This document shows, in pieces, positions 43,221 through 62,033 of a stretch of 64,000 bases of DNA. The notes beneath the pieces were generated by a model that made no database searches, was not told the DNA's origin, and saw only the letters and a list, made by a program, of their open reading frames with translations. This DNA comes from Melaminivora jejuensis (GTDB taxonomy: Bacteria; Pseudomonadota; Gammaproteobacteria; Burkholderiales; Burkholderiaceae_C). The stretch spans positions 1,054,001 to 1,118,000 of the forward strand of contig NZ_JACWIJ010000002.1 in assembly GCF_017811175.1 (NCBI RefSeq). The letters run 5' to 3'. Both the position numbers and the translations under genes were made by a program. The stretch's first letter is position 1. Each line of letters opens with the position of its first letter.

Positions 43221-44131
43221 GGCAACTCCCCGGCACCAGCGCATTCCAGCACCAACCAGTCGCGAAACGCCGTGACCAGCGGCGTCTGCGCCCGCGCCTC
43301 GGGATAGACCAGGTAGTAGGCATCGCCACTGACCAGCGTGTCGGCAAACAACTCCACCAGGGCGCCGCTGGCCAGCTCTTGCTCGATCAGAAAGCGCGGC
43401 AGCAGCGCAGCGCCCATGCCGCAGGCGGCGGCCTGGGCAATCATGGCGAAGTGCTCGAAGTGCGGGCCGCGCAGGGCCGCATTGGTCTCGATGCCCAATT
43501 GCTCGAACCACTCGGCCCACTGCGCTGGCCGCGTGCTTTGCTGCAGCAGCACCACGCGCGCCAGATCCTGTGGCTGCCCGATGCCGTGCGCGTCGCGCAG
43601 CGCCGGGCTGGCCACGGCCACGGCCTGCTCGTGCATCAGGAACTCGCATACCGCCCCGGCCCAGGTCGGCGCGCCGAAGTGAATGGCGGCGTCGAAGGGC
43701 GTGCCGGCAAAGTCGAACGGCTCGGAACGCGCCGCCAGGTTGACCGTGGCCTGCGGATGCCGCGCCTGGAAGCGCGGCAGGCGCGGCACCAGCCAGCGCG
43801 TGCCCAGCGTGGGCAGCACGGCCAGGTTCAGCAGCCCGCCGGCGTGTGAGAACGCCATGGCCTTTTGCGTGCTGGCCGACAGCTGCTGCAGCACGGCGCG
43901 CACGTCAGCGGCATAGACGCGGCCCGCATCGGTCAGCACGATGCGCTGGCGCACGCGGTGAAACAGCGCCATGCCCAGGCGCTGCTCCAATTGCCGGATC
44001 TGGCGCGAGACAGCGCTTTGCGTCAGGTGCAGCTCATCGGCAGCGCGCGAGATGCTGGCCTGGCGCGCGGCGGCCTCGAAGGCCAGCAGGTCGCTGATGG
44101 GCGGCAGAAAGTTCTTGCGAAAACTGTTCAT
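43217..44131 (-). CDS. LysR-family transcriptional regulator (GcvA-like)
   Basis: 304 residues from MNSFRKNFLPPISDLLAFEA. The HTH is AARQASISRAADELHLTQSAVSRQIRQLE, followed by a type-2 periplasmic-binding-like effector domain. The PPISDLLAFEAAARQ start resembles GcvA/AmpR relatives. It is divergent from the amino-acid-binding protein at 44344, its probable target, although its 4-base overlap with cbiB puts it in the same transcription unit as the cobalamin genes. Effector unknown. Confidence 0.9.
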   Translation of the reverse strand: MNSFRKNFLPPISDLLAFEAAARQASISRAADELHLTQSAVSRQIRQLEQRLGMALFHRVRQRIVLTDAGRVYAADVRAVLQQLSASTQKAMAFSHAGGLLNLAVLPTLGTRWLVPRLPRFQARHPQATVNLAARSEPFDFAGTPFDAAIHFGAPTWAGAVCEFLMHEQAVAVASPALRDAHGIGQPQDLARVVLLQQSTRPAQWAEWFEQLGIETNAALRGPHFEHFAMIAQAAACGMGAALLPRFLIEQELASGALVELFADTLVSGDAYYLVYPEARAQTPLVTAFRDWLVLECAGAGELP

Positions 44132-44343
44132 GCAGGAAAGGAATGATGCTGGCGAAGTCAGTGCCGTGAGACAGAACAATCGCCCCTTGTCAAGCCCGGC
44201 AAAACCCGGTCGAGAGGTCTCAATTCTGACCGGGTTCATTCGCTGTGCGCATGAAGTCGTTCCGCATTTTTGCTATCCACAGGTGCCAGGCCGGGCGATA
44301 GTGTGTATCGCAAGGCAGAACAACCATTCAAGGAGACGCAAGC

Positions 44344-45303
44344 ATGACCTTCTGGCACCAGACCTGGCACAGGAAAGCGGCCTCGTTTTCGCTTTCCACG
44401 GCTTCCTCGGCCTTTTCAGGGGCGGCGCTGGCGCTGCTGTGCGCCGCCGTGGTGCCGGCTGCGCAGGCACAGGCCCCTTCAGCCACCTTCGACAAGATCA
44501 AGTCCAGCGGCAAGGTCGTGCTGGGCGTGCGCGAGACCTCTCCGCCCATGGCCTATGCCCTGGGCGCCAACGACAAGTATGTCGGCTACCACGTCGAGCT
44601 GTGCGAGCGGGTGCTCCAGGACATCGCACCCGCCGCGAAGCTGGAATACATGGCCATCACGGCACAAAGCACCATGCCGCTGGTCAGCAACGGCACGGTG
44701 GACATCGGCTGCGGCCCCACGACCAACAACCTGGCGCGCCAGCAGCAGGTGGCCTTTGCCGTGACCAGCTATGTCAGCGAGGTGCGCATGGCCGTGCGCA
44801 GCGACTCGGACTTGAAGTCCATCAGCCAGCTGGGCGGGCGCACGGTGGCCGCCTCCACCGGCACCACGGCCGTGCAGCTGCTGCGCAAGCAAGAGCGCGT
44901 GGTCGGCGCGCCCATCAAGACGGTGCTGGGCAAGGATCACCACGAGAGTTTCATGCTGCTCGAGTCGGGCCGGGTCGATGCCTTTGTGCTGGACGACAAC
45001 ATCCTGGCCGGCGTCATCGCCAACTCCAAGGATCCGGGCGCCTTTCGCATCGTCGGCGAGCCGCTGGGCGCGGAGCCGATCGCGCTGCTGTTTCGCAAGG
45101 ACGACCCGGTCTTCAAGGCGGCGGTCGATGGCGCCATCACGCGCCTGATGCAGTCGGGCGAGATGGAAAAGCTCTACACCAAGTGGTTCGTGCAGCCCAT
45201 CCCGCCCAAGAACGTCAGCCTGAACCTGCCGCTGGGCAACACCTTGCGTCAGCTGTTCGCCAACCCCAACGACAAGCCGCTGGAGTCCTACCAGCAGCCT
45301 TGA
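44344..45303 (+). CDS. Periplasmic amino-acid-binding protein (GltI-like) without neighbouring permeases
   Basis: 319 residues, with a signal peptide ending near AVVPAAQAQAPSA. Family features: GKVVLGVRETSPPMAY, GYHVELCERVLQ, and GCGPTTNNLARQQQVAFAV, the last typical of glutamate/aspartate-binding proteins. No ABC permease or ATPase is adjacent; a ThDP enzyme follows after 19 bases. It may feed a transporter encoded elsewhere or act as a sensor. It is divergent from the LysR gene, which probably controls it. Confidence 0.88.
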   Translation: MTFWHQTWHRKAASFSLSTASSAFSGAALALLCAAVVPAAQAQAPSATFDKIKSSGKVVLGVRETSPPMAYALGANDKYVGYHVELCERVLQDIAPAAKLEYMAITAQSTMPLVSNGTVDIGCGPTTNNLARQQQVAFAVTSYVSEVRMAVRSDSDLKSISQLGGRTVAASTGTTAVQLLRKQERVVGAPIKTVLGKDHHESFMLLESGRVDAFVLDDNILAGVIANSKDPGAFRIVGEPLGAEPIALLFRKDDPVFKAAVDGAITRLMQSGEMEKLYTKWFVQPIPPKNVSLNLPLGNTLRQLFANPNDKPLESYQQP

Positions 45304-45322: not shown

Positions 45323-47020
45323 ATGACCATCCCAACCCCTACCCCTCCTTCCTCCCGCACCGGCGGCCAGATCCTGGTGCGCCAGCTCCTGGCCCACGGC
45401 GTGCAGCAGCTGTTTTGCGTGCCGGGCGAGAGTTATCTGGCCGTGCTCGATGCACTGCACGATGCCGACATTGCCGTCACCGTCTGCCGCCAGGAGGGCG
45501 GCGCCGCCATGATGGCCGAGGCGCAGGGCAAGCTGACCGGGCAGCCGGGCATTTGCTTCGTGACGCGCGGGCCGGGGGCGTCCAATGCTTCCGCCGGCAT
45601 CCACATTGCGCAGCAGGATTCGACACCGCTGATCCTGTTCGTCGGTCAGGTGGCACGCGGGGCCAAGGGGCGCGAGGCCTTCCAGGAGCTGGACTACCGC
45701 GCCGTCTTCGGCACCATGGCCAAGTGGGTGGTGGACATCGACGACCCGGCGCGGCTGCCGGAGCTGGTCTCGCGCGCCTTCCACGTCGCCACCTCGGGCC
45801 GGCCTGGGCCGGTGGTGGTGGCCTTGCCCGAGGACATGCTGACCGCCAGCGCCAGCGTGGCCGACGCCCTGCCCTACCAGGTCAGCGAAACCCACCCCGG
45901 CGCCGCAGCCCTGCAGGAGCTGCACGGACGCCTGCAGGCCGCCCGCCAGCCCGTGTTCATCCTGGGCGGCAGCCGCTGGAGCGAAGCGGCCGTGCGCGAT
46001 GTGGCGGATTTTGCCGAGCGCTGGCAGGTGCCGGTGTATTGCTCCTTCCGCCGCCAGATGCTGCTGCCGGCCAGCCACGACTGCTACGCAGGCGACCTGG
46101 GCCTGGGCGTCAACCCCCGGGTGCTGGCGCGCATCAGGGACAGCGACCTGGTCGTGCTGCTGGGCGGGCGGCTGTCGGAAGTGCCGTCACAGGGCTATGA
46201 GCTGCTGGACATCCCCAACCCAGTGCAGCCGCTGGTGCATGTCCACGCCGATGCCGACGAGCTGGGCCGGCTGTACCGCCCGGCGCAGGCCATCCACGCC
46301 ACCCCCGTGGCCATGACACGTGCGCTGGCGCAACTGCCGGCCCCATCAGCCACCCCGCGCTGGCTGGAACACACCCGCGCCGCGCGCGCCGAATACCTGG
46401 CCTGGAGCGACCCGGCGCCCATTCGCATCCCGGGCGAGCTGCAGATGGGCCAGGTCATGCAGCACCTCAGGGCCGTGCTGCCGCCGGACGTCATCGTGTG
46501 CAATGGCGCCGGCAACTTTGCCACCTGGGTACACCGCTTCTGGCACTTCGAGTGCTACGCCAGCCAGTTGGCGCCAGCCAGCGGCTCCATGGGCTATGGC
46601 CTGCCGGCGGGTGTCGGCGCCAAGCGCCTGTGGCCGCAGCGCGAGGTGGTGGTGTTTGCCGGCGACGGCGATTTTCTGATGCACGGCCAGGAGTTCGCCA
46701 CTGCCGTGCAGTACGGCCTGCCGCTGGTAGTCATCGTGCTGGACAACGCCATGTACGGCACCATCCGTATGCACCAGGAGCGCGAGTACCCGGGCCGCGT
46801 CAGTGCCACCAGCCTACGCAACCCGGACTTCAGGGCCTACGCCCAGGCCTTCGGCGGCCACGGCGAGCGCGTCGAGCGCACCGAGGAGTTCGCCCCGGCC
46901 CTGGCGCGCGCACGCGCCAGCGGCCTGCCGGCCCTGCTGCACTGCCTGATCGACCCGCAGGCCATCACGCCCGGCAGCACGCTCGACGGTATCCGGGCAG
47001 CGGCGCTGGCCCAGAGCTGA
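45323..47020 (+). CDS. Thiamine-diphosphate-dependent enzyme (acetolactate synthase-like)
   Basis: 565 residues in three ThDP domains. The cofactor-activating Glu is in VCRQEGGAAMMAEAQGKLTG. The central FAD/nucleotide-like domain follows. The ThDP-Mg motif is GDGDFLMHGQEFATAVQYGLP ending at VIVLDN. A separate small regulatory subunit (IlvN) is absent, so it is probably catabolic or a 2-oxo-acid decarboxylase/carboligase rather than the biosynthetic acetolactate synthase. Co-transcription with the amino-acid-binding protein suggests an amino-acid-derived substrate. The reaction cannot be fixed from sequence. Confidence 0.82.
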   Translation: MTIPTPTPPSSRTGGQILVRQLLAHGVQQLFCVPGESYLAVLDALHDADIAVTVCRQEGGAAMMAEAQGKLTGQPGICFVTRGPGASNASAGIHIAQQDSTPLILFVGQVARGAKGREAFQELDYRAVFGTMAKWVVDIDDPARLPELVSRAFHVATSGRPGPVVVALPEDMLTASASVADALPYQVSETHPGAAALQELHGRLQAARQPVFILGGSRWSEAAVRDVADFAERWQVPVYCSFRRQMLLPASHDCYAGDLGLGVNPRVLARIRDSDLVVLLGGRLSEVPSQGYELLDIPNPVQPLVHVHADADELGRLYRPAQAIHATPVAMTRALAQLPAPSATPRWLEHTRAARAEYLAWSDPAPIRIPGELQMGQVMQHLRAVLPPDVIVCNGAGNFATWVHRFWHFECYASQLAPASGSMGYGLPAGVGAKRLWPQREVVVFAGDGDFLMHGQEFATAVQYGLPLVVIVLDNAMYGTIRMHQEREYPGRVSATSLRNPDFRAYAQAFGGHGERVERTEEFAPALARARASGLPALLHCLIDPQAITPGSTLDGIRAAALAQS

Positions 47021-47113
47021 GTTGCCCCGCATGGCAGCGCTGCCGAGTTTTTTGGGTTTCCTGGAGCTGCATTAGCAAAATCGGCCGAAATCATGGCTAC
47101 AATGGCCGGCTTC

Positions 47114-47205
<92 letters not shown>

Positions 47206-47211
47206 TATATG

Positions 47212-47246
47212 AGCCCAAGTGATTGATTCACTTGGGCTTTTTTTTT
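47212..47246 (+). terminator. Strong intrinsic terminator behind tRNA-Ser
   Basis: AGCCCAAGTGA and TCACTTGGGCT form a perfect 11-bp stem around a 5-base loop, followed by a run of nine Ts (47238-47246). It ends tRNA-Ser transcription 8 bases after the CCA. Confidence 0.93.
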
Positions 47247-47501
47247 GGGTTTTTTCTCTACCCACGTTTTTACCCACGTCGAAAACGTCGGTAGCAGCGG
47301 ACGTCCAGCACGGTTCAACGGGGTCGCATCCCCCTTCGAACGCACGAGCCTGAAGCCTTGTCTGCCATGAGCAGCGCCCACGCTGGAGATCGGCAAGTGC
47401 CAGGCTGCCTGAACTCTGCTGCGATGAGCTGCCTCCTCGTGCCGCCATGGATGGCCCAAGCCAGCCTCTTGCCGAAAGAGGAGCCTATCCGGTCGTCTTT
47501 T

Positions 47502-47523
47502 GACCGGCCAAATTTGGCCGGTC
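47502..47523. repeat. Palindrome ACCGGCCAAATTTGGCCGGT, copy 1 (isolated, left side)
   Basis: Perfect 22-bp palindrome: the 20-base core plus flanking G/C. Seven copies exist in this window and none lies outside 47.5-54.5 kb. Its flanks read on the reverse strand as GCG before and AAAAGACG after, so this copy is inverted relative to copies 3, 5 and 6. Confidence 0.9.
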
Positions 47524-47691
47524 GCTTGGCTGCGATCGCTTCAGCAAGTCGCCCAGCCACTGTCGGCTTCATACATCAGCCTCGCACATCAGCATTGCTT
47601 GCTTCGGCTGGTGTGGCATATACTTCCGCGCGTTGCGCCTCTCTCTTTTGGCTTCGATGTTGAAGCTCGTCCGCAGAAAAGAGAGAGCACC

Positions 47692-48222
47692 ATGCACACC
47701 AACGCGACCTCCCCCATCCACGCCCTGCTGGGCCTGCCAGAAATCGGCTCCCAGGGCATCGAGCGCAGCGTCATCTTCCCCCTGCTCCCGGCAGCCGCCC
47801 AGACAGCCATCCGCAGGGCCACCAGCGAGGCCGACAAGCGCCAACTGGCAGCTCAGGCAGGCGACGCCCTGCCCGTCATCCTGGAGATGTACGAGGACTG
47901 CGTCATCCAGCCACAGCAGCGCCGCAGCGCTGGCTTGGCCTTCCCCACCTTCGCAGACTTGGGAAATTTCTTCTTGCCCGGTGTGCTGCACACGCACGAC
48001 CGCTCATGGCTGCGTGTCGGCCAGCAAATCACAGCCATCGAAGTCACCCAGGAGTCCTCGCCTGCCCAGGGCTGGCAAGTCCTCGTTCGCTACGCAGACG
48101 GCGAACAACGCCTGGCTGCCGGCAGTGGCGGTGAAAGTTGTTTTTCCTCCTGCGCCGACGCAATGGAGCTCGCACAACACATCAGAACTGCGGCATTCAT
48201 TCTGGGCAACCTGATCGACTGA
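47692..48222 (+). CDS. Hypothetical protein behind tRNA-Ser
   Basis: 176 residues from MHTNATSPIHALLGLPEIGS, preceded by AAGAGAGAGCACC. No signal peptide or membrane segment. The middle part (LPVILEMYEDCVIQPQQR) and the repeated use of Gln/Ala suggest a soluble alpha/beta protein. Codon use is G+C-rich but less biased than the core genes. No family is recognised. It is the first gene of the accessory segment bounded by palindrome copies 1 and 2. Confidence 0.65.
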   Translation: MHTNATSPIHALLGLPEIGSQGIERSVIFPLLPAAAQTAIRRATSEADKRQLAAQAGDALPVILEMYEDCVIQPQQRRSAGLAFPTFADLGNFFLPGVLHTHDRSWLRVGQQITAIEVTQESSPAQGWQVLVRYADGEQRLAAGSGGESCFSSCADAMELAQHIRTAAFILGNLID

Positions 48223-48687
48223 AAAAAGCGCAAGCCTGCCGTGAGCCCGGCGCTTCCTATCTTGCGGGTAGCTGCCGGGCACGTTCACTTGAGCAGCCAA
48301 GATGCTGTTGAAGGTGGCTCGGTCATCCAGGCGTGGACGCTGTCTTAGGCGAGGGCCGGGCAGCAAACACCTGCGGCTCCAGTTTCTCCCAAGGCTTTTG
48401 GCCCATCAGGGAAGTGTTTCATCAGGAAGGGATCTGCACGGGATATTCCTGTAGCAGAGTTTATTGCCGAACCTAGCCTGTACCCAAAGAAGCAAAGCGC
48501 ATTGAATAGCTGGCAAACAGCGCATACACCTCTTTACTGGCGCAAGAAAAACAAAATTGCCGACTGCCTCGGCAGACTGCTGCCAAGCCATCCTCGGACT
48601 ACGCTTGACTGAGAGATTATTCATGGGATATTGAATTGAACCAATCGGAGCAGACGGTCTGCTCAATTGGCTCACATAGGAGAACCC
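48223..48687. other. 465-bp non-coding stretch
   Basis: No convincing gene on either strand. TTGACT at 48605-48610 with ATATTG 17 bases on is a weak sigma70 candidate for the gene at 48688. No terminator with a clear T-tract is seen behind the gene at 48222. Confidence 0.4.
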
Positions 48688-49386
48688 ATGAAAGACTGTA
48701 CCAACCACCAAGAAGATAGCTCTTCAGGCCAATACTCCGAGGCAGACGTGGCTACAGGCTGCATCACCTTGGCAAAAGCTCTTGTCCAGCTTAACGTTCA
48801 GCTGGGCAAGACACTGCTGCTCGAAGTGATGTATGCTGAAAATTTCCCCGATTACGGGGTCTTGCAAAAGACTCTTCTCGCCGAGCATCTCAAGACTGAT
48901 CGGTTGCGACTGCAATTGCTGGATTTGAGGATCAAGGCAGCGCTTGACTTGGCTACTCGGGTGAAGGTGCTGTTCAGGCAAGCGCCCGATGCTCATGTTC
49001 TGAATGAAGAAGTCGTTCAGTTGCTTTTGACGGATATGGAGAGAGTGGGGTTTCACTGGAAGGGGCAGATCAGCCTGGATCGTTGGGCCGCAGATACTGA
49101 TGCGATCGTGCGCCAATGGCAACGAGAGCGCAGAACACTGGAGGCCAGAATCAGCGAAAAACAGGAAACCTCTGAGTTGATGGCCCTTCAGCAGGAAATA
49201 GTAGAGGTGCTGACCCTGGGTGCCAATCATTTGCATACCCATCTGTCCGCCATGGAGTCAACCGACCCCTGCAAGGCGCAGATCCTGGAGGGTCTGGAGG
49301 TCAATGCCCGCAAGCCTCTGACGACCAGTTGGCAATGGATGTTCAGCAACAGTGACTTCCAGGAGTTTGTCCAACAGTCTTGCTGA
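48688..49386 (+). CDS. Hypothetical helical protein
   Basis: 232 residues from MKDCTNHQEDSSSGQYSEAD with a TAGGAGA site. Mostly helical with leucine-rich stretches (LAKALVQLNVQLGKTLLLEV) and a charged likely coiled-coil (QWQRERRTLEARISEKQETS). No membrane segment and no known motif. Its place before alpA, the helicase and rep suggests an accessory plasmid or island function, for instance regulation or partitioning, but nothing in the sequence shows it. Confidence 0.65.
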   Translation: MKDCTNHQEDSSSGQYSEADVATGCITLAKALVQLNVQLGKTLLLEVMYAENFPDYGVLQKTLLAEHLKTDRLRLQLLDLRIKAALDLATRVKVLFRQAPDAHVLNEEVVQLLLTDMERVGFHWKGQISLDRWAADTDAIVRQWQRERRTLEARISEKQETSELMALQQEIVEVLTLGANHLHTHLSAMESTDPCKAQILEGLEVNARKPLTTSWQWMFSNSDFQEFVQQSC

Positions 49387-49656
49387 GGCAGCAGATAGTG
49401 GCGAAAGAGCCTGGGCCTTGAAGGCTCCGGCTCTCGCCTAACGACAGGTTGCGCTACTGAATGTTGATACCCAACGCGTGTTATTTGCTTCCAGAGCCGT
49501 TCGTGGAGTGCTTACCATGCTCACATGGATTCATGGACGTACCGATTGAATCCATGGTGTTTCCGGCTCACGCCTATGCACTGCCAATCGACTGTACGCA
49601 GCACGCGGGTGGCACCGGATCTTCTTCGATCTTTGCTTTTGTTGAAGGGTATATCT

Positions 49657-49878
49657 ATGTCTGTAATGCTTGGTATGAGCAACACAATGTACCAAGAGCG
49701 TCGTCTGCTGCGCTTGAGGTCGGTTTTGGAGATGACAGGCTTGGGGCGCAGCAGTCTCTATAAGATGATCAAGGAGCAAAAATTTCCGCGCCCGGTGCAA
49801 ATTGGCGCACGATCAGTCGCTTGGGACAGCACCGCAGTGGCAACTTGGATGCAAGAACGCATCAGTGGAAAATTGTGA
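49657..49878 (+). CDS. AlpA-family helix-turn-helix regulator
   Basis: 73 residues from the ATG that gives MSVMLGMSNTMYQERRLLRL; an alternative start lies at MYQERR. The core RLRSVLEMTGLGRSSLYKMI plus KEQKFPRPVQIGARSVAWDS is the AlpA/excisionase-like winged fold. AlpA proteins in P4-like islands activate the integrase or act as excision factors. Here no integrase is beside it, so its target may lie elsewhere or be lost. It lies 207 bases upstream of the helicase gene. Confidence 0.88.
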   Translation: MSVMLGMSNTMYQERRLLRLRSVLEMTGLGRSSLYKMIKEQKFPRPVQIGARSVAWDSTAVATWMQERISGKL

Positions 49879-50085
49879 TCTACCGGAGAAGGCTCAAAGC
49901 CTTCTCTGTGAAATCTGAAGCCGTTGTACTTCAAGATCAATCACGCCATCGTCATCGCACAAATCCTCACCGACGTGTGCCTGGGTGCTCGGTGGCTCCA
50001 TCCGCTTTCCAATAGGCAGGCCTTGGGAGTTAGATGATGGGCTTGAGGTGCGGTACACGTATGGTTTTACCTCTGTAGTTGCAAC

Positions 50086-51963
50086 ATGACTGTTTTTACT
50101 GCTCTCGATCGCATTGGTTGCCAGACGCCCGCAGAGGCACTGCTGGTACTACCCAAGGATTATGTCGACAAAACCCACATGTACCGATGCATCAACGCAC
50201 ATCTACCGACCAATCGCCTCATCATGTTCTGCGCTGTTGCTCGCTCTTGGAGAGGTCTCAACAGCCAAGGTCAAGTGACCTACAGCCCATACCCACGCTG
50301 CATTGACCTGATGCTGGATTTTGAAGATACCAAAGGTTTTCGGGTGCGCTTCTTCGGCCTGACTCCTGATGCAGCCAAGATGCTTGTCGATATGCCGCTG
50401 GAGTTTCAGGCCAGTATCAAAGACTACACCGATGGTCAGCGATTTTTACAAAACGCTCAACTTGCTGCATTGAGCGGCAAGATCGAGCCACAGTACGCCG
50501 GCGTGCAAGGTTCTGTCTCGGGCACCAAGATTGAGGCCGCAGTACGGGCTGCGCTGGCGATGCCTGACGCTCTGGATGCAGCAGCGCAGATCCTCATGGA
50601 CAACCCGACCATCGCCCGCTTGCTGCATCAGCACAGCATCACCGCCCGACAACTTATTGTGGATTTGCACCGGCCCAGCTCGTTTGAGCGTGCCGACACC
50701 GCCCTGCGGCTGGCCCGTCACTGCGTCGTCCAAGAGGTACGTGCGCTGGCGCTGCAAGGCAGTGATGCAAGCCGTAGCGAAGTCGTGCCAGCTTTCTACA
50801 ACCTGGATGAGGACTTGCGCGCCCTGGTGCAGGCCCAGCCCGAGACCCTCAGCCATGACCAGCGCCATGCCCTCAACGGCATTCGTAAACTTGTCAACGC
50901 CCAACGCGGCGTGCGCATCCTGCTCAATGGCGACGTGGGCACCGGCAAAACGCTGGTGTTTCTGCTGGCGCTGGCCGCCATCTGTCAGGCCAGTCTCAGA
51001 CGTGTTGCCGTCGTGGTGCCAAGCGATTTGGTAGCACGACAGATTCATGCCCAGGCCGTACGGCGCTTTCCTCACTTGGAGCCTGATCTGGTAATCGCTG
51101 GCACCACACCTTCACCCCACGCACGGATGCTCATTGGCACCCAAGCGCTGTTTACACATGCTGGCGAATTGGATCTGGAGGCTCTGGTAGTCGATGAACA
51201 GCACAAGTTCTCTGTGCAGCAGCGCACTGTGCTCTCCCAAGGCCACACCCATATTATCGAAGCCAGTGCAACGCCGATTCCTCGTTCTCTGGCACTTGCC
51301 CTCTTTGACGGCTGGCAGCAAATTCGCCTCACCAACAGCCCGGTGAGCAAAACCATTCGCTCGTCCATCGCCTCGAATGCCGAGCGCTCAAAGGTCAACC
51401 AGTTGATTCGCACACATATGAGCAATGGGCGCAAAATCATTTTCTTGTACCCCAAGGTCAGCGGTCAGGGCGCGTCCGTAAAGGCTGCCGGTGAGCGACT
51501 GGGACAGCACTTCAAGAACAAGGTGGCCGTGCTGCACGGGCAGATGGCAAGCGAAGCCAAGACTCAGGCGCTCCAGGCATTTGCCAGCGGCGATAAACCC
51601 ATTGTGGTAGCCAGCACTGCGGTGGAAGTCGGCGTGGATGTGCCCGATATTGGGTTGATGGTGGTCTCTGGCGCTGACCGCTTCGGGGTCGCCCAACTGC
51701 ACCAATTGCGCGGGCGGTTGGCCCGTAATGGCGGCAGCGCCGATTTCGTGATGGTGCTCGACAAGCAGCCTTCGCGCCTGACCCAGGAGCGGCTCCAAGC
51801 TGTGTGTGATCACCCAGACGGATTTTCGCTGGCCGAGCGGGACATGGAGATCCGAGGCTTCGGAGATGTGCTGGGTGAGTTTCAGACGGGCAAATCCCTG
51901 GGTACTTTCAAGCTTCCGCGTTTGGAGGTGCAGGACTTTATCCAGTCCAAGCGCCACTTCTAG
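50086..51963 (+). CDS. RecG-like superfamily 2 helicase encoded on the island
   Basis: 625 residues. Motor motifs are complete: Walker A GDVGTGKTLVF, DEQHKF (motif II), SATPIPRSLALAL (III), TAVEVGVDVPDIGLMV (V) and QLHQLRGRLARNG (VI), then the RecG-type helical-hairpin end LAERDMEIRGFGDVLGEFQTG. The N-terminal part (1-230) replaces the standard RecG wedge/OB domain and is not clearly recognisable. RecG remodels stalled forks and D-loops; next to a ColE2-type initiator this one may process replication intermediates of the element. The host presumably has its own recG. Confidence 0.9.
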   Translation: MTVFTALDRIGCQTPAEALLVLPKDYVDKTHMYRCINAHLPTNRLIMFCAVARSWRGLNSQGQVTYSPYPRCIDLMLDFEDTKGFRVRFFGLTPDAAKMLVDMPLEFQASIKDYTDGQRFLQNAQLAALSGKIEPQYAGVQGSVSGTKIEAAVRAALAMPDALDAAAQILMDNPTIARLLHQHSITARQLIVDLHRPSSFERADTALRLARHCVVQEVRALALQGSDASRSEVVPAFYNLDEDLRALVQAQPETLSHDQRHALNGIRKLVNAQRGVRILLNGDVGTGKTLVFLLALAAICQASLRRVAVVVPSDLVARQIHAQAVRRFPHLEPDLVIAGTTPSPHARMLIGTQALFTHAGELDLEALVVDEQHKFSVQQRTVLSQGHTHIIEASATPIPRSLALALFDGWQQIRLTNSPVSKTIRSSIASNAERSKVNQLIRTHMSNGRKIIFLYPKVSGQGASVKAAGERLGQHFKNKVAVLHGQMASEAKTQALQAFASGDKPIVVASTAVEVGVDVPDIGLMVVSGADRFGVAQLHQLRGRLARNGGSADFVMVLDKQPSRLTQERLQAVCDHPDGFSLAERDMEIRGFGDVLGEFQTGKSLGTFKLPRLEVQDFIQSKRHF

Positions 51964-52187
51964 AGAGCCTCTGCATCACTCCATCACCATTGCATGACGG
52001 CCATGGTGGCCGAAGACGCGAGGGGGTCCAAAATGCTGCATCTATCGCTATCTACGTTGAATCATTGAATATTTTGATTCAACTTGAGCATCGGCTCCGC
52101 ATGAGGTATCCAGAGCAGCACGGACTCATGATTTTGGCTATTTTGCGCCTGCCATCGGTTGCGCCACAATTTTTGTGCAAACTCTAG

Positions 52188-53222
52188 ATGTGGATATTTT
52201 TAGAAATGGAAGCATTGATTTCGGCAAGCCGTACCAATTATTTGCAGCAGGCTATGCGATTTTTTAAGGAAACAGCACCTGCACGCCCTTTTTGCAGCGA
52301 TGATCCACGCACTCAGGGTCAATATCAATTGAGGCGATGCGAAGCATTAAAGCGCCGCCATATCCAACCCAACACGCCTAAACTTGTGACGTGGCTTTGT
52401 TTCGACATCGATCGACCCGGCGCTGCCTACGACTGGTACGATCGCAACTTGCCGCCACCCACGTTGACTATCGAGAACCCCCACAATGGTCACGCGCACT
52501 TGGCTTATGCCCTGACCAAACCGATCCCGCGATCCGATATATCGCGTATCAAGCCCTTGCAATACATGGCTGCCGTGTCCGAGGGAATTCGCGCACAGGC
52601 AGGCGCTGACCTGGGGTACTCTGGTGGACTATTGAAAACGCCAGGGCACCCTGCGTGGCACACCGCGTCCTATGCTGGAACCTACAGCTTGGACGATCTG
52701 GCAGACTGGGTAACGCCTGTCAAGCTTGTAGATCTACGTAAGAAGGTCAAAAACAGCGAATATGCGGGCCTGGGTCGCAATTGTCTGTTGTTCGAGCTGC
52801 TGCGTACCTTCGCTTACGCCGCTTGGCGTCACTACCGTCTCGCAGGGTTCGAGACGTTTCAATCTGAGGTAGAACTGAGGGCTATCGATTTGGCAGCCAA
52901 AAGCAGCCCACGCACGCCCTTGTCAACCGCTGAGACCCGCGCCATCGCTCGCAGCGTAGCCAAATGGGTGTGGCGTCATTTTTCCGCTTCGGGGTTCGCG
53001 GCTTACCAGTCGGCAGTGGGCAGGCGTAAGGGCGCAGCCAAACGTGCCGCCGAGCTAGAGCGTGTGCTCCTCATGGCGTCTGAAGGTTATTCGCAGCGTA
53101 GGATCAGTGCTGCTGTCGGTGTTGCCCAAACGACTGTCAGCCACTGGCTCCGAACCCACGCCCAATCGACTGAGCAAAAGCCATATCAGATATACCCTGT
53201 CTGCGCCCCCCAGCCTCTCTGA
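52188..53222 (+). CDS. ColE2-type replication initiator (Replicase/PriCT domains) with C-terminal HTH
   Basis: 344 residues (or 338 from a second ATG). The N-half has the primase-like motif set LCFDIDRPGAAYDWY and ENPHNGHAHLAYALTKPI. A PriCT-type domain follows (YAGLGRNCLLFELLRTFAYA). Then comes a resolvase-like helix-turn-helix, GYSQRRISAAVGVAQTTVSHWL. ColE2-type Rep proteins make a unique primer RNA at an origin just behind their own gene. The 3' end of this gene is duplicated twice downstream, and the most conserved part of those copies is a candidate origin. This marks the segment as plasmid-derived or capable of replicating. Confidence 0.87.
   Translation: MWIFLEMEALISASRTNYLQQAMRFFKETAPARPFCSDDPRTQGQYQLRRCEALKRRHIQPNTPKLVTWLCFDIDRPGAAYDWYDRNLPPPTLTIENPHNGHAHLAYALTKPIPRSDISRIKPLQYMAAVSEGIRAQAGADLGYSGGLLKTPGHPAWHTASYAGTYSLDDLADWVTPVKLVDLRKKVKNSEYAGLGRNCLLFELLRTFAYAAWRHYRLAGFETFQSEVELRAIDLAAKSSPRTPLSTAETRAIARSVAKWVWRHFSASGFAAYQSAVGRRKGAAKRAAELERVLLMASEGYSQRRISAAVGVAQTTVSHWLRTHAQSTEQKPYQIYPVCAPQPL
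53171..53209 (+). promoter_or_regulatory. Candidate replication origin, copy 1 (within the rep 3' end)
   Basis: TGAGCAAAAGCC then ATATCAGATATACCCTG to CTGCGCCCC is identical in the three copies here, at 53442-53480 and at 53865-53903, although neighbouring bases differ. The AAGCC…TATCAGATA pattern recalls the ColE2 origin from memory. Whether Rep binds it is untested. Confidence 0.45.
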
Positions 53223-53319
53223 GGGCCACGGAGTAGTCGGTCGCGTGAAAAATTAGTTTTTTGACGCAGACTGCATTTTTCAGCTCATGTCCATGCATGA
53301 GGGCGGCGGCTGCGCCACC

Positions 53320-53340
53320 GACCGGCCAAATTTGGCCGGT
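53320..53340. repeat. Palindrome ACCGGCCAAATTTGGCCGGT, copy 2
   Basis: Closes the native rep 3' region and opens module X. It is followed by GCTCTGCCAACCAGGG, exactly as copy 4 is. Confidence 0.9.
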
Positions 53341-53591
53341 GCTCTGCCAACCAGGGCTTCCTGATGGCATCCATCGGTGCTGCCGTCGGCGTCCTCCAAA
53401 CAACTGTCGGCCACTGGCTCCGAACCTACGCCCAACCAACTGAGCAAAAGCCATATCAGATATACCCTGTCTGCGCCCCCCAGCCTCTCTGAGGGCCCCA
53501 GAGTAGTCGGTCGTGCGAAAAAATTCGTTTTTTTGACGCAAACTGCATTTTTCAGCTCATGCCCATGCATGAGGGCGGCGGCTGCGCCACC

Positions 53592-53613
53592 GACCGGCCA
53601 AATTTGGCCGGTC
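53592..53613. repeat. Palindrome ACCGGCCAAATTTGGCCGGT, copy 3
   Basis: Right end of module X, followed by AAAAGATG, as copy 5 is. Confidence 0.9.
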
Positions 53614-53743
53614 AAAAGATGCCGGGAAAGAGGTGTCTTTGGATGCCGAAACTGATTCTGAACGCCAAAAACACCCACCCAAGTCCGAGCGCAGTTCGAT
53701 AGCTGCTCGCGTCGAGTGCTTCGGCTGCTGCTTGGGTCGGGAC

Positions 53744-53764
53744 GACCGGCCAAATTTGGCCGGT
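53744..53764. repeat. Palindrome ACCGGCCAAATTTGGCCGGT, copy 4
   Basis: Left end of module Y, with the same right-hand flank as copy 2. Confidence 0.9.
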
Positions 53765-54013
53765 GCTCTGCCAACCAGGGCTTCCTGATGGCATCCATCG
53801 GTGCTGCCGTCGGCGTCCCTCCAAACGACTGTCGGCCACTAGCCCGAACCCATGCCCAACCGACTGAGCAAAAGCCATATCAGATATACCCTGTCTGCGC
53901 CCCCAGCCTTTCTGAGGGCCCCGGAGTAGTCGGTCGCGTGAAAAATTAGTTTTTTGACGCAGCTTGGACTTTTTTCGCTCATGTCCATGCATGAGGGCGG
54001 CGGCTGCGCCACC

Positions 54014-54035
54014 GACCGGCCAAATTTGGCCGGTC
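54014..54035. repeat. Palindrome ACCGGCCAAATTTGGCCGGT, copy 5
   Basis: Right end of module Y. It is followed directly by the AAAAGATGA…TCATCTTTT stem-loop (54036-54063). Confidence 0.9.
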
Positions 54036-54251
54036 AAAAGATGATGAAAAGACCTCATCTTTTGAAAATTTTACGGAAATTCGCCGTCTAAATAACCAAT
54101 GATAGTTATGAACCGAAATTTGATGCCAATAGGCATATTTTGGGTGCTTGACCAGGAGGCAGGCTCTGCGCAGTGGTGAGCCCTCTTGATACATCAAACG
54201 CGAGCAGCCTTGTGATCGGAGAGGCGAGGTGATCGCCCCGTGCTGACGAGC

Positions 54252-54273
54252 GACCGGCCAAATTTGGCCGGTC
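54252..54273. repeat. Palindrome ACCGGCCAAATTTGGCCGGT, copy 6
   Basis: Stand-alone copy, followed by GAAAGACGC and, after 7 bases, GCGTC, which can form a second small stem. Confidence 0.9.
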
Positions 54274-54425
54274 GAAAGACGCACGCCAAGCGTCATTTTT
54301 CGTTTGCTTTGACTTTCATCAATCCAGACGTTCTTCGAGCGTGCCATGGCAATCAACGTGGCGGATGAGCCAGCTGTTGCAAGAGCGCTCCTGTCCGCTG
54401 GAGTGGTTGGAGCCTTCGTCTGAGC

Positions 54426-54447
54426 GACCGGCCAAATTTGGCCGGTC
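54426..54447. repeat. Palindrome ACCGGCCAAATTTGGCCGGT, copy 7
   Basis: Right-most copy, about 195 bases before the IS3 element. Preceded by GC, followed by TAAGATCC. Confidence 0.9.
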
Positions 54448-54704
54448 TAAGATCCATCCACTTGGACAAGGACAGAGAGCTATCGCTGATCCTCCTTGGT
54501 ACGTAAGTACACGGCTCTGCGCCCTCCCCGCGCCAAGCCTCGACACGCCGCAGACCCAAAGCGCTACCACGATCGGCATCGGAGATCTGAAGACGGGTAG
54601 AGGTAGCAAAGGATCGGCATCCTGCCCTCATAGCTGCCACATGGTAATCCCCCCGCAAAACCAGAGCACTGAGAAGTAGAAGTTTTCGAAGGAAAATTTC
54701 TACC

Positions 54705-54971
54705 ATGAAGAAGTCTCGATTCACCGACAGCCAGATCATTGATGCACTCAAGCGCGTGGAGGCTGGTCTCGCCGTGCCCGAGCTGTGCCGCGAGATGGGC
54801 GTCAGCACAGCCACGTTCTACAAGTGGCGCTCGAAGTTCGGCGGCATGGATGCCTCGCTGATGGCGCGCATGAAGGAGCTGGAGGAGGAGAACCGCCGGC
54901 TACGCAAGATGTACGTCGAAGAAAAGCTCAAGGCCGAAGTGGTCTCGGAGGCGCTCGCAAAAAAGTGGTGA
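54705..54971 (+). CDS. IS3-family OrfA (helix-turn-helix, leucine zipper)
   Basis: 88 residues. HTH_Tnp_1-type start [20 protein letters not shown], recognition helix [15 protein letters not shown], then a heptad zipper ([19 protein letters not shown]). It supplies the DNA-binding part of the OrfAB fusion transposase. The A6G slippery heptamer for -1 frameshifting is at 54959-54965, just before the stop. Confidence 0.94.
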
Positions 54972-55005
54972 AGCCATCTCGCCGCCGCGAGATGGCTCAA
55001 AGGGC

Positions 55006-55791
55006 GTGCTGGAACGAGGCATGTCGATCCGTGCCGCATGTTTGGCGTTCCAGATCAGCCAGGCTTGCTACCGATACGAAGCCAAGCATCAGGCCGAGAA
55101 CGATGAGATCGCCGACTGGCTGCTGCGCCTGACGGACAACAACCGCAACTGGGGCTTCGGGCTGTGCTTCCTGTACCTGCGCAACGTCAGAGGCTTTGCC
55201 TGGAACCACAAGCGCGTGTACCGAATCTACAGGGAGCTGGAGTTGAACCTGCGCATCAAACCACGCAAGCGCCTGGTGCGAGAGAAGCCCCAGCCGCTAT
55301 CGGTACCAGAGGCCATCAATCAGGTATGGTCGATGGACTTCATGCATGACCAGTTGGAGGATGGCAGAAGCTTCAGGCTGCTCAACATCATCGATGACTT
55401 CAACCGCGAAGCACTGGGCATCGAGGTCGACTTCTCGCTGCCCACGCTGCGGGTGATCCGCACGCTCACACAGGTCATTGCCTGGCGTGGCAAGCCGCAG
55501 GTCATTCGCTGCGACAACGGGCCGGAGTACATCAGCGCAGCCATCGCGGCGTGGGCCGAGTCATGGGGCATTCGTTTCGAGCACATCGAACCAGGCAAGC
55601 CCCAACAGAACGCCTACGTCGAACGCTTCAACCGGACGGTACGCTACGAGTGGCTCTCGCAGTACCATTGGTCTGATCTTGATGAGGTCAGGCTGCATGC
55701 CACCCAATGGATGTGGATGTACAACCATGAACGCCCAAACATGGCCTTGGGCGGCATCACCCCCAAGCAGCGGTTGGCCATGGCCGCTTAG
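55006..55791 (+). CDS. IS3-family OrfB (DDE integrase core), 5' part frameshifted
   Basis: 261 residues from the GTG/LERG start. The catalytic DDE is seen in [21 protein letters not shown] and [15 protein letters not shown]. In relatives OrfB follows the -1 frame as [16 protein letters not shown] and then [12 protein letters not shown]. Here the -1 frame leaves the OrfB frame at about 55001-55006 (one base missing in AAAGGGCGTG), so the fusion cannot form as sequenced. Either the IS is dead or a C was missed. Confidence 0.88.
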
Positions 55792-56016
55792 CTCTACTTC
55801 TCGGAGCGGTGGTTTATGGGGGATTACCAGGTGTTCGACAGGCGCGCTAGCATGAGCGCGGCAGATTTATGCAGAGGTTCCTTAGCCGCTCTAAATCTGT
55901 GTCGCCCGTTTCGGACGCTGCACTCTGCACCGATGTGGTATTCGTGTAACTTACGCGTTGTAAATCCTATTGTTATAAACTAGAATTTCCACTTCTAATG
56001 GAACAGGTAACAAGTG

Positions 56017-56505
56017 ATGAAAAAATTGGTGTTTTTGGCTTGCGCTTTTTTTATTGGCTGTGGTGAAAGAACGCCGGAGGTGCCATTATTTGTTGAACTT
56101 AATTCTGACCAGATACAAGCGCTACCGGCAGGGGAGAGGGTCTGTTACAAAATTGCCGCCACTGTAAACGGCGTTTTCCCAAGCAGTCCAACCCAATGTT
56201 CTCCAATTAAAACAGCGTCAGGGGCAATGTTTAAAGAGAGTTTTTCTTTTTATTTAAAAACCTCTACCAAACAAGTTTCCGAATGGAATAAGTGGGCTTG
56301 TCTATCTGCGGGAAAGGTAATGGCTGATGGTGTAGATGTTGGTATGGATAAAATTTTCTTAAAGAGTCATCCTTCGAATAAGCGAGCAGCTGAAATAAGC
56401 GCCTATGTTTGTAGGAATTTGCAGGAAAAGGCTTCTCTTGGGGAAATAAATGGATCAGAAGTCTTAAAAGAATTTAATCGCTATTCGACCCTGAAGGATA
56501 TGTAA
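56017..56505 (+). CDS. Small predicted lipoprotein
   Basis: 162 residues. MKKLVFLACAFFIGCGERTP is a lipoprotein signal with lipobox FIGC. The mature protein has four more Cys (VCYK, TQCSP, WACLS, YVCRN), probably two disulfides. The GTG 3 bases upstream is less likely as a start. The gene is clearly more A+T-rich than the core. No family is recognised. Export plus paired Cys plus foreign composition resemble periplasmic immunity or inhibitor proteins, but that is only a guess. Confidence 0.7.
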   Translation: MKKLVFLACAFFIGCGERTPEVPLFVELNSDQIQALPAGERVCYKIAATVNGVFPSSPTQCSPIKTASGAMFKESFSFYLKTSTKQVSEWNKWACLSAGKVMADGVDVGMDKIFLKSHPSNKRAAEISAYVCRNLQEKASLGEINGSEVLKEFNRYSTLKDM

Positions 56506-59887: not shown

Positions 59888-60081
59888 GCAAAGGGGAGCA
59901 CTCGTAGATGAGCTCGGTATAAACATACTTTTGACTATTTGCGCGAGGAGTTGCGCCACCGTCATTTTACATAGACTTATTGCCCCGAAAGCAATGAACT
60001 TGATATCAACCCATATTCCATCAGAGAGAGCTTGGCGACCTGAATTTCAAGTTCTTAAATCTCTCATCAATAGCACAATTC

Positions 60082-60264
60082 CTACTTAAACAATTGAGAG
60101 CACCCTGAATACTCAAGCAGAACAACTGCAATAATTACACCAACAATAAATTGGATGATTTTATTGGCGTCGCTAATCCCAGGCTCACCTTTACCGCAGT
60201 GCGGGCATACTTTAGCAGATTTGGAAACTTCTTTTCCACACTCAGTACATTCCACTAGTGCCAT
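60082..60264 (-). CDS. Zinc-ribbon plus transmembrane mini-protein
   Basis: 60 residues. The N-terminal zinc ribbon CTECGKEVSKSAKVCPHCGK (two CxxC knuckles) is followed by one membrane helix (IIQFIVGVIIAVVLLEY). Such proteins are widespread and uncharacterised, often in accessory regions. It presumably faces the cytoplasm with its metal site. Confidence 0.75.
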   Translation of the reverse strand: MALVECTECGKEVSKSAKVCPHCGKGEPGISDANKIIQFIVGVIIAVVLLEYSGCSQLFK

Positions 60265-60565
60265 ATAATTATCCCATCAAAAAAACACCATAGAGGGTAG
60301 AAATTTCATATTTTCAAATAAATCAGAAATTTATTTCCGAAAGATAGATCCAAAAAATTTCAACTTGCCTCGTATCTTTAGGATTTACGCAAAGTATTTT
60401 TCGAAATAAAAGCAAAATATTAATTTCCCCAATGAAATCAATAATTTGCATCGACGGAAATCCTCTGTGGTTTAGAGATTTTCAAATAATCAGGACTTAC
60501 GTAAGGATTTGCACCGCCGTCAGTTCGTATATATTTTGCACAACCCCTATTTAGCACTAGACAAT
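60265..60565. other. 301-bp A+T-rich intergenic stretch with terminal-repeat-like motif
   Basis: TAGGATTTACGCAAA at 60379-60393 is the inverse of TTTGCGTAAGTCCTA at 58826-58840 (14 of 15). A third related sequence, AGGACTTACGTAAGG, is at 60493-60507. Otherwise no gene or hairpin is seen. Confidence 0.45.
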
Positions 60566-60949
60566 TTATTGCCCAAGAAGGGATCTAAATACATTTCCAA
60601 TTTGCTTCATTTCTTTATAATCTTTCAATTTTGACGACTCCCAACTCGGACTCCAGTCTTTCCCGCTCCACTTACCATCAACAGTTGTCACAGAGATAAT
60701 CCCATCAGCACCATAGCCCGACTCATCTGAAATACTGCCAGACCAAGTCATATTAACTTTTAATCGAATTTCATTTTGCGAAGAATCTTGGAGATCATGC
60801 TCTATGAGATTGACTTGTATTTTTTTTCCTCCGTCATAATAACTACGAACAACCCACTTTCCGTAGAAATCAGCAAGTTCTCTGGCTTCACTCTGAATTC
60901 GAACCCGCCTCTCCTCCTTCTTCTTTCTTTCATTTTCTCGCCACGCCAT
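60566..60949 (-). CDS. Hypothetical protein, no signal peptide
   Basis: 127 residues. The charged helical start MAWRENERKKKEERRVRIQS leads into a beta-rich part with many Trp/Ser/Asp (WVVRSYYDGGKK, MTWSGSISDES, KWSGKDWSPSW). The same frame stays open for about ten codons upstream without a start codon (YDGYEKEL), so the annotated start may be internal to a formerly longer gene. A+T-rich. Function unknown. Confidence 0.6.
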   Translation of the reverse strand: MAWRENERKKKEERRVRIQSEARELADFYGKWVVRSYYDGGKKIQVNLIEHDLQDSSQNEIRLKVNMTWSGSISDESGYGADGIISVTTVDGKWSGKDWSPSWESSKLKDYKEMKQIGNVFRSLLGQ

Positions 60950-60975
60950 TAATTCTTTTTCATATCCATCATAGT

Positions 60976-61365
60976 TTATTTTGATTTTTTATAATACCCA
61001 TCGATCTCCCTTTCGACTCTCAAGATACCACTTTTCACCTTACCGGATGATATATAACACTGCTTCACTTTGTCTAGAATATTAAAATTTGCATGCCTAC
61101 TACCTCTAGCAGAATTGAAATATCCATCCAAACCGGAATAGCCATAATTGGCACTCAAAAATTCATCCAGAGATTTCATCTTTTTCTGAATTTCATTACT
61201 CATTCCGCACTCATCCGCAACGGCAAATTGAGTTCCAGATTTTTCAGCAAGGGATTGATATTCTGCCTTATCCAGCCTGGGCATTGCAGGCTGAGAAAAT
61301 GCAAAAAATGAAACAAAGAACAATCCGGAAATCAACGTATTTCGCGTGTTTTTTCTTCTACTCAT
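60976..61365 (-). CDS. Small secreted hypothetical protein
   Basis: 129 residues from MSRRKNTRNTLISGLFFVSF, with GGAG 8 bases upstream; an in-frame ATG further upstream is less likely. Signal peptide cleaved near FSQPA. The mature part has two Cys (ADECGMS, VKQCYIS), suggesting one disulfide, and a Lys-rich C-end (GYYKKSK). A+T-rich. No family is recognised. It lies 26 bases upstream of the previous gene on the same strand. Confidence 0.65.
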   Translation of the reverse strand: MSRRKNTRNTLISGLFFVSFFAFSQPAMPRLDKAEYQSLAEKSGTQFAVADECGMSNEIQKKMKSLDEFLSANYGYSGLDGYFNSARGSRHANFNILDKVKQCYISSGKVKSGILRVEREIDGYYKKSK

Positions 61366-61411
61366 CACAATATCTCCAGGAAGCATTTCAATCACAAACC
61401 CACGATTCATT

Positions 61412-61801
61412 TCATCTATTTAGAGCATCAACAAATGATTTTGGCAGTGGATTCATCTTTCCATTTCTATAAATATACGCCTCTCGCACAATTCCACCTG
61501 TCATCACTATTTTCCCATCAAGTCGCCCATTTTTATATTGATACTTAATCGCCTTAAATGGATTTTTATTAACTTCATCTCTCTTTGAGGGAAAATATCC
61601 CGTCGCCAAAATATCAGAATGCTGATATACAGAAACACGTATTTCCTTCAAATCACCGCCAAAATATTCGTACTCCCTTTTCAACTGCACTCCATTGCCA
61701 CGATCCTCCATCTCAATTTTTGTATTCAATTCAGCAGCATTCAGAGCGGGATGAATAATTGCCTGAGATATAATTAAAAAGAAAAAACATACGATTTTCA
61801 T
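61412..61801 (-). CDS. Small secreted hypothetical protein
   Basis: 129 residues from MKIVCFFFLIISQAIIHPAL, AAGGGTG site upstream. Signal cleaved near LNAAELN. The mature part is beta-rich and includes KYQYKNGRLDGKIVMTGGIV and REAYIYRNGKM, which resembles a short MORN/antitoxin-like YwqK pattern (YxNGxxxG). It is the first of three consecutive reverse-strand genes here. A+T-rich. Immunity-like function is possible, not shown. Confidence 0.65.
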   Translation of the reverse strand: MKIVCFFFLIISQAIIHPALNAAELNTKIEMEDRGNGVQLKREYEYFGGDLKEIRVSVYQHSDILATGYFPSKRDEVNKNPFKAIKYQYKNGRLDGKIVMTGGIVREAYIYRNGKMNPLPKSFVDALNR

Positions 61802-61873
61802 AATTTCACCCTTGATAAATAAAACCTCATAAGCCACTATTCAGCATATAAAATTAGGCAACCAAATAAGCAA

Positions 61874-61905
61874 AGCCCCCATCGCGCCAATGCGCGATGG
61901 GGGCT
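61874..61905 (-). terminator. Long GC-rich hairpin, possible terminator
   Basis: AGCCCCCATCGCGC and GCGCGATGGGGGCT pair perfectly over 14 bp around CAAT. Read on the reverse strand it is followed by TTGCTTATTTGG, a poor but T-rich tail. It would end transcription coming from the SEDS-like gene. Confidence 0.5.
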
Positions 61906-61963
61906 CAAAAAAGAAGGAAAAAAGGAAAACCGAGCGGAACTATTCCGCTCAACCCGTTCTACA

Positions 61964-62033
61964 TGCGGGCTGCGGGCTGCGGGCTGCGGGCTGCGGGCTG
62001 CGGGCTGCGGGCTGCGGGCTGCGGGCTGCGGGC
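61964..62033 (+). repeat. Ten perfect copies of TGCGGGC
   Basis: A 70-base run of a 7-bp unit with no mismatch. Because 7 is not a multiple of 3, it reads through all three frames. Such a run is prone to slippage. Confidence 0.95.

Follow-up and report, generated by a model that had tools for sequence, protein, structure and literature searches.

A near-invariant 20-bp palindrome bounds origin-bearing modules beside a ColE2-type rep gene in Melaminivora jejuensis

Two short modules, X and Y, were found beside an open plasmid-type replication gene (rep) in the chromosome of Melaminivora jejuensis, within the 64,000-nt stretch of DNA that was analysed here (the window). Each runs from one copy of a 20-bp palindrome (ACCGGCCAAATTTGGCCGGT) to the next and encloses a remnant of the rep 3' end; both are genuine modules with palindromes at their ends and an origin inside, and they belong to an integrated plasmid-type element. 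We judge it somewhat better than an even bet that the palindrome is a dispersed module boundary and that X and Y are origin-bearing modules copied at it.

Modules X and Y and the putative ColE2-type origin

The rep gene and the array that follows it comprise the following features:

52188..53222, + strand: rep, ColE2-type initiator (PF03090 Replicase, PriCT_1, HTH)
53171..53209, + strand: 39-bp core in the rep 3' end, putative ColE2-type origin (motif 53179-53192)
53320..53613, + strand: module X (palindrome, rep remnant, origin copy 53441-53479, tail, palindrome)
53320..53341, no strand: palindrome copy 2, left end of X
53592..53613, no strand: palindrome copy 3, right end of X
53614..53743, no strand: 130-bp spacer unit in the X-Y gap
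53744..54035, + strand: module Y (X-like layout, broken frame, origin copy 53865-53903)
53744..53765, no strand: palindrome copy 4, left end of Y
54014..54035, no strand: palindrome copy 5, right end of Y
54036..54251, no strand: 216-bp spacer unit
54252..54273, no strand: palindrome copy 6
54274..54425, no strand: 152-bp spacer unit
54426..54447, no strand: palindrome copy 7, the last of the array
54651..55822, + strand: IS3-family element just past the array (ends assumed to be two inverted arms)

The array (53320-54447) is ordered X, 130-bp spacer, Y, 216-bp spacer and 152-bp spacer, with neighbouring units sharing one palindrome; five of the seven window palindromes also border a spacer, which the first-pass annotation made from the sequence alone did not mention. 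Relatives of the three spacers were not found among the 28 units compared. X and Y were 91.6% identical to each other upon alignment, and 89.3% and 89.8% identical, respectively, to the rep 3' end. A deletion of seven codons in the HTH region is common to both modules (MASEGYSQRRISAAVGV in rep vs. MASIGAAVGV in X and Y); the rep frame is kept in X and is frameshifted in Y. On its + strand, the window holds exactly three copies of the 39-base core (53171-53209, 53441-53479 and 53865-53903). The longest invariant runs in the alignment of rep, X and Y were 50 columns, covering the tail and palindrome, and 37 columns, covering the origin core and falling one alignment gap short of 39; when 200 body columns were shuffled 20,000 times, 167 shuffles had a run of at least 37. 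The match between X and Y spans the whole palindrome-to-palindrome interval, outside of which the two differ on the left and have only AAAAGATG in common on the right. Assembly collapse as the source of the two modules was thought unlikely, since they are ∼8% divergent and have different outer flanks. The module order, the palindrome ends, the identical core and the broken frame of Y had all been described in a first-pass annotation made from the sequence alone, and each was confirmed here, with the addition that X retains the rep frame.

The product of rep carries PF03090 (E=1e-32), PriCT_1 and HTH_23 domains, the combination by which it was assigned to the ColE2-type Rep proteins, and the columns that do not vary in an alignment of 13 sequences include D73, D75, H102 and H104. 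Relatives were identified in 3032 plasmid records, all of them below 60% identity. An origin motif, AGCC(A/T)TATCAGATA, was located at rep or just past its stop in seven of the seven ColE2-type plasmids that were fetched, of which Halomonas THAF12 requires three mismatches and two are close E. coli relatives. The same motif is present in rep, X and Y. Homology therefore supports the candidate origin proposed in the first-pass annotation, the 39-bp core being a putative ColE2-type origin, and X and Y would accordingly carry copies of it. According to the available text of PMC5304414, RepA-PFP replicons have a ColE2-like origin (primer sequence AGA) that lies either inside the 3' end of rep or past the gene, an arrangement resembling the one found here inside the rep frame. 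The window also resembles ColE2-type (class C theta) replicons in combining a PF03090 Rep with PriCT_1 and HTH domains and an origin motif at the rep 3' end; unlike these, its rep is chromosomal and is accompanied by two further origin copies in palindrome-bounded modules. The additional origins probably bind Rep. By analogy with the ColE2 origin, which the same available text describes as an incompatibility determinant (PMC5304414), they may titrate it.

Viral contigs in IMG/VR provided a further comparison. The origin motif was found at rep, with no more than one mismatch, in seven of the 10 loci examined among 15 with Rep relatives. In one of these loci (L156), two motifs follow rep at 4929 and 5160, 231 bp apart and without a palindrome; a spare origin is therefore not peculiar to the palindrome system. 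AlpA-like proteins are encoded at five of the 10 loci examined, as in the window. The contigs L150-L158, which have Rep relatives, are ∼7–12 kb in length. For L152 and L155, the two with an ORF listing, an integrase-like ORF appeared to come first and head-gene-like ones later, judged by eye; these contigs are perhaps phage satellites using a ColE2-type Rep. An exact search of viral contigs with the origin 20-mer returned no match, and Rep as a single-protein query against genome contigs returned 37 pattern matches and no relatives. Within window positions 46500-56500, a tRNA alone passed the Rfam gathering score. An antisense RNA control region upstream of rep had no Rfam match at E values up to 0.1, though one could still be present.

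Island A, island B and the proposed parent element

The island in the window, referred to as island A, has the following features to the left of rep:

47114..47204, + strand: tRNA-Ser(gga), at the 3' end of which island A seems to begin
47502..47523, no strand: palindrome copy 1, tRNA-proximal (matching place in island B, C2:596150)
47692..48222, + strand: ORF1, no Pfam match (island B relative 82% identical)
48667..49386, + strand: ORF2, no Pfam match (relatives in island B, 81%, and genome G275, 37%)
49525..49878, + strand: AlpA-type regulator (PF05930)
50086..51963, + strand: RecG-like helicase (84% to island B, 56–58% to Giesbergeria contigs)

A second island (B) is located at tRNA-Ser(tga) in the same genome. 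Window positions 47175-48297 correspond to C2:596493-595390 and positions 48542-51938 to C2:536885-533534, at 83% identity each, with the homology starting at 47175, inside tRNA-Ser(gga). Retained in island B are the leftmost palindrome and, of the genes, ORF1, ORF2, AlpA and the one for the RecG-like helicase, the product of which in the window shares 31–35% identity with the best RecG-like matches elsewhere in the seven genomes searched. No second rep, X or Y was found elsewhere in the window's genome. The two islands part company near the RecG stop, where no palindrome half-site (≤2 mismatches) was detected in window positions 51001-52300, and on the island B side the break does not coincide with any of the 14 palindromes of the genome. 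The halves of island B are ∼58 kb apart (C2:537400-594000), and translated starts in between resemble metal-resistance and stress genes by eye. No integrase was recognised in island A, nor was an att repeat beyond chance found. Further along the window, positions 60001-62000 are of low GC content (38%) and carry small ORFs, unlike the rest of the window.

These comparisons bear on the interpretation given in the first-pass annotation, which took X and Y for non-autonomous derivatives (satellites) of a larger Rep/RecG element occupying 47502-53340, with the same palindrome at its ends. On this reading they would replicate as small circles with Rep supplied in trans. Both modules do have an intact origin core and intact palindrome ends, and rep is an open frame with its conserved residues. 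However, 47502-53340 is not a discrete unit: island B has the leftmost palindrome and the core genes and no rep, and its break with island A occurs without a palindrome. Moreover, Giesbergeria contigs that are rich in the palindrome yielded no relative of the window Rep, 3' fragments of an integrase gene occupy the same type of unit in a Giesbergeria metagenome-assembled genome (MAG; see below), and in IMG/VR locus L156 a second origin copy follows rep with no palindrome present. We therefore consider satellites of this kind very unlikely. What stands of the earlier interpretation is the putative ColE2-type origin, together with the palindrome-bounded block differences and the one single-palindrome site described below; the parent element does not.

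The palindrome and block edges on Giesbergeria contigs

The palindrome (GACCGGCCAAATTTGGCCGGTC) has seven copies in the window, two of them with one end mismatch, and it was absent from each of 100 dinucleotide shuffles of the window. With up to two mismatches allowed, the window's genome has 14 copies, spread over four regions, a wider occurrence than the first-pass annotation mentions. The exact 22-mer was found in one of 120 genomes searched, the window's own, and with one mismatch allowed the palindrome was found in two of 399 family genomes, the window's own and G275. A scan of genome contigs yielded 35 stretches with the palindrome, 31 of which came from two genomes of Giesbergeria, a member of the Comamonadaceae. 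All 34 copies (≤1 mismatch) in Giesbergeria anulus reside on a single contig of 146,907 bp (hereafter Gan), and 29 of 35 copies in the Giesbergeria MAG reside on a single 153-kb contig, with five and one on two others; the MAG supplied the sister contig to Gan (hereafter Gsp). Matches in the plasmid collection to the palindrome flank (three, weak, E 2–6) and to the G275 variant (at least 66 records, E 1–5) were taken as chance.

Among the domains encoded by Gan are coupling-protein, TraI_2, VirB4-like, T2SSE, ParB, actin-like, DnaN, UvrD and RecG-like domains, based on a scan of 20 chosen proteins (one or two clipped at the stretch end) with three added later. From these domains we infer that Gan is a conjugative plasmid or an integrated conjugative element; terminal overlap was looked for and not found. 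When six window proteins were tested, only the RecG-like one had a relative on the Giesbergeria contigs (56–58%), and no relative of the window Rep was found on those that are rich in palindromes. The G275 stretch has other genes in common with the Giesbergeria contigs.

Gan and Gsp are collinear in inverse order. In matched pairs the 20-bp core was identical in eight of eight cases, with flanks 64–93% identical; the eight were taken from 11 Gan palindromes crossed by the alignment, leaving out the three of the array at 100056-100334, and were selected for a recognisable palindrome in both contigs. At the place matching Gsp 123915, Gan (31351) carries another palindrome that is itself perfectly symmetric, and at the place matching Gsp 98235 it carries none. 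A logo of 63 sites showed conservation falling sharply beyond 20 bp, with the core conservation inflated because the sites were picked for no more than one mismatch. The site thus seems to be functional, and conservation of this kind would suit a hairpin or centromere as well as a dimer operator or recombination site. By eye, the palindromes at L059 5611, Gan 135752 and Gsp C12 44713 have a similar right flank and different left flanks.

Edges of homology between the two contigs coincided with palindromes more often than with control positions. With the palindromes masked, one-sided homology was observed at nine of 37 Gan sites and five of 31 Gsp sites (≤4 mismatches), compared to 3.0% and 2.6% of random intergenic controls, respectively (binomial 1.3e-6 and 1.1e-3); the two tests are not independent, as all but one of the five Gsp sites have a partner among the Gan sites. 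Unmasked alignment crosses three of the nine Gan sites (24498, 100212 and 100334), without which the count is 6/37 (binomial 8e-4). An earlier, looser test gave 12/37 for Gan (circular-shift maximum 6) and 6/31 for Gsp (circular-shift maximum 7, mean 1.1). Homology was found on neither side of 20 of the 37 Gan and 11 of the 31 Gsp palindromes, which are therefore uninformative. Chance was rejected as an explanation of both the recurrence of the palindrome and the edge enrichment, on the basis of the shuffles and the edge test.

One clean empty site was identified. The sequence to the left of Gan 70902 and that to the right of Gan 74808 join at a single palindrome, Gsp 85968; therefore a 3.9-kb block with one inner palindrome was gained or lost, leaving one palindrome. 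The first-pass annotation had proposed a search of other genomes for just this pattern, and it was found in this one case, in one contig pair of which one contig is from a MAG. Since the palindrome is also a 20-bp direct repeat, a single-copy scar could also result from ordinary recombination or slippage. It is possible, then, though we hold it the weaker case, that the palindrome's job is that of an intrinsic terminator, an operator or a ParB/KorB-like partition site, with modules turning over passively by recombination or slippage at the repeats. A terminator-like T-run accompanies 22 of 68 Giesbergeria copies vs. ∼5% of control positions, two G. anulus copies (51112 and 52192) flank a ParB-HTH gene (51138-52085), and a palindrome cluster lies ∼2 kb from a ParB_N gene preceded by a ParA-like gene; symmetric variants retain two-fold symmetry, as expected of a dimer site or hairpin. 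In the window's genome, however, a T-run is found at only one of 14 copies, while wrong-side T-runs are also above the 4–5% control in Giesbergeria (14/68, two copies having both). Furthermore, a terminator or operator role leaves the short exact unit arrays of the window unexplained.

Similar units were found elsewhere. In the array near a recombinase gene, Gan 100056 joins flanks that are parted by more units in Gsp, and one of the extra Gsp units holds a 3' fragment of the neighbouring integrase gene. Such fragments of the 3' end of the DUF3701 integrase gene lie between palindromes at G448:C3:45890-46336 and G448:C36:37246-37651 in the Giesbergeria MAG, which parallels the rep 3' ends in X and Y. 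Because these integrase fragments sit in palindrome-bounded units, copying of gene 3' ends is independent of the origin. A second pair of units in the window's own genome (C2:537202 and C2:594526) is 82.5% identical in opposite orientation; the match overruns by ∼54 bp into IS5-like ends on one side, and the pair is weaker evidence because its edges are not exact on both sides.

The recurrence of short palindrome-ended units could also be expected if the palindrome were the end of a self-inserting miniature transposon or a REP-like repeat, and the modules simply the DNA between insertions. The IS5-like end has four matches in the genome, and all three that reach the terminus abut a palindrome (L030 4525, L030 4829 and L029 5363, i.e. 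C2:594524, 594828 and 537362); some IS elements target repeats. The palindrome at Gsp 98235 without a Gan counterpart would suit an insertion, and Gan has an IS200-type Y1 transposase (Y1_Tnp) gene at 129473-129928, away from the palindrome arrays. This gene lies beside an OrfB_IS605 / Cas12f1-like gene (129473-131174 for the two). It has no relative on the Gsp contigs compared, yet Gsp has palindromes. Broken-up matches to it occur in island B, and no Y1 transposase was among the nine window proteins scanned. In addition, neighbouring units share one palindrome rather than having two each, conservation ends at 20 bp, and no target-site duplication stood out on an unsystematic look at the listed flanks. 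We regard an origin by self-insertion as unlikely.

For the reading that we favour, a dispersed module boundary, the following course of events is proposed. The palindrome would be a near-invariant site of 20 bp, present in a family of conjugative plasmids and integrated elements in the Comamonadaceae, at which modules may be inserted, lost, copied and shuffled, each module bringing one site and its loss leaving one. The window would contain part of such an element, lodged in the chromosome beside tRNA-Ser and ordered as AlpA, RecG-like helicase, ColE2-type Rep with its origin, and then five units in a row, each bounded by palindromes. X and Y would descend from one module that acquired the rep 3' end, and therefore the origin, by recombination at the palindrome; this ancestral module would then have lost part of the HTH and been copied with palindrome-exact edges. 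The anatomy, the homology of the origin, the enrichment of module edges at palindromes and one precise empty site are what the data show; exchange at the palindrome as a process, the enzyme behind it and any effect of the extra origins are what we infer.

Candidate enzyme, known systems and significance

Three contigs encode a recombinase with DUF3701 and Phage_integrase domains ∼0.4 kb from a palindrome cluster. Its gene lies at Gan 100722-102482, at Gsp 43322-45085 and on contig C36, of which the latter two belong to the same MAG. The recombinase is a candidate for the enzyme that acts at the palindrome. Its relatives are common on plasmids, several of them beside ParAB and Rep genes. In one ∼50-kb stretch from each of six plasmids with DUF3701 relatives no comparable palindrome was found; a single 14-bp palindrome core recurs, twice. 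In the window's genome the recombinase has no more than two relatives, both distant (33–34% identical). According to the available text of PMC8138268, DUF3701 belongs to the TnpR subgroup of simple tyrosine recombinases. The Giesbergeria recombinase resembles the members of this subgroup with DUF3701 (Tn4401-type; available text of PMC8138268) in its DUF3701 and Phage_integrase domains; unlike the Tn4401-type, its relatives adjoin ParAB and Rep genes on several large plasmids.

The strongest version of the scheme would combine several of these elements: an undescribed system of module exchange in Comamonadaceae conjugative elements, the palindrome as its recombination site, a fully symmetric centre that admits modules in either orientation, a plasmid-borne tyrosine recombinase of the DUF3701 type as the acting enzyme, and X and Y able to replicate by Rep in trans once excised. 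Taken jointly, we consider this combination rather improbable.

Among known systems, the closest likeness is to the pdif (XerC/XerD) modules of Acinetobacter plasmids, which, as described in the available text of PMC6449649, are also bounded by short sites, with many sites on some plasmids and others in chromosomes. Gain or loss of a module leaving one site, as for pdif, was seen here in the one case of Gan 70902-74808 vs. Gsp 85968, alongside the edge enrichment. In contrast, the pdif site as given in that text is 28 bp long with 11-bp XerC/XerD arms and a variable 6-bp centre (PMC6449649), whereas the palindrome described here is fully symmetric over 20 bp with sharp edges, the two having been compared by description. 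Integron cassette arrays are likewise made up of small modules sharing sites, and in Giesbergeria a tyrosine recombinase gene lies ∼0.4 kb from a site cluster; unlike integrons, however, the symmetric palindrome gives no polarity, and recombinase relatives occur on six plasmid stretches without a comparable palindrome. The letters of the palindrome (20-mer or 14-bp centre) were not found in the literature searched, with subscription journals mostly outside its scope, and a search on palindromic repeats and cassettes in Comamonadaceae plasmids brought up nothing that looked related.

Should the palindrome prove to be a true site of exchange, it would be a counterpart of the Acinetobacter pdif modules built on a different kind of site, and would offer large conjugative elements a simple route for swapping gene blocks. 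It would also serve as a sequence tag for module edges in such plasmids and islands. Lastly, the origin modules beside an intact rep provide a means of testing whether spare origins restrain the replication of an integrated plasmid-type element.
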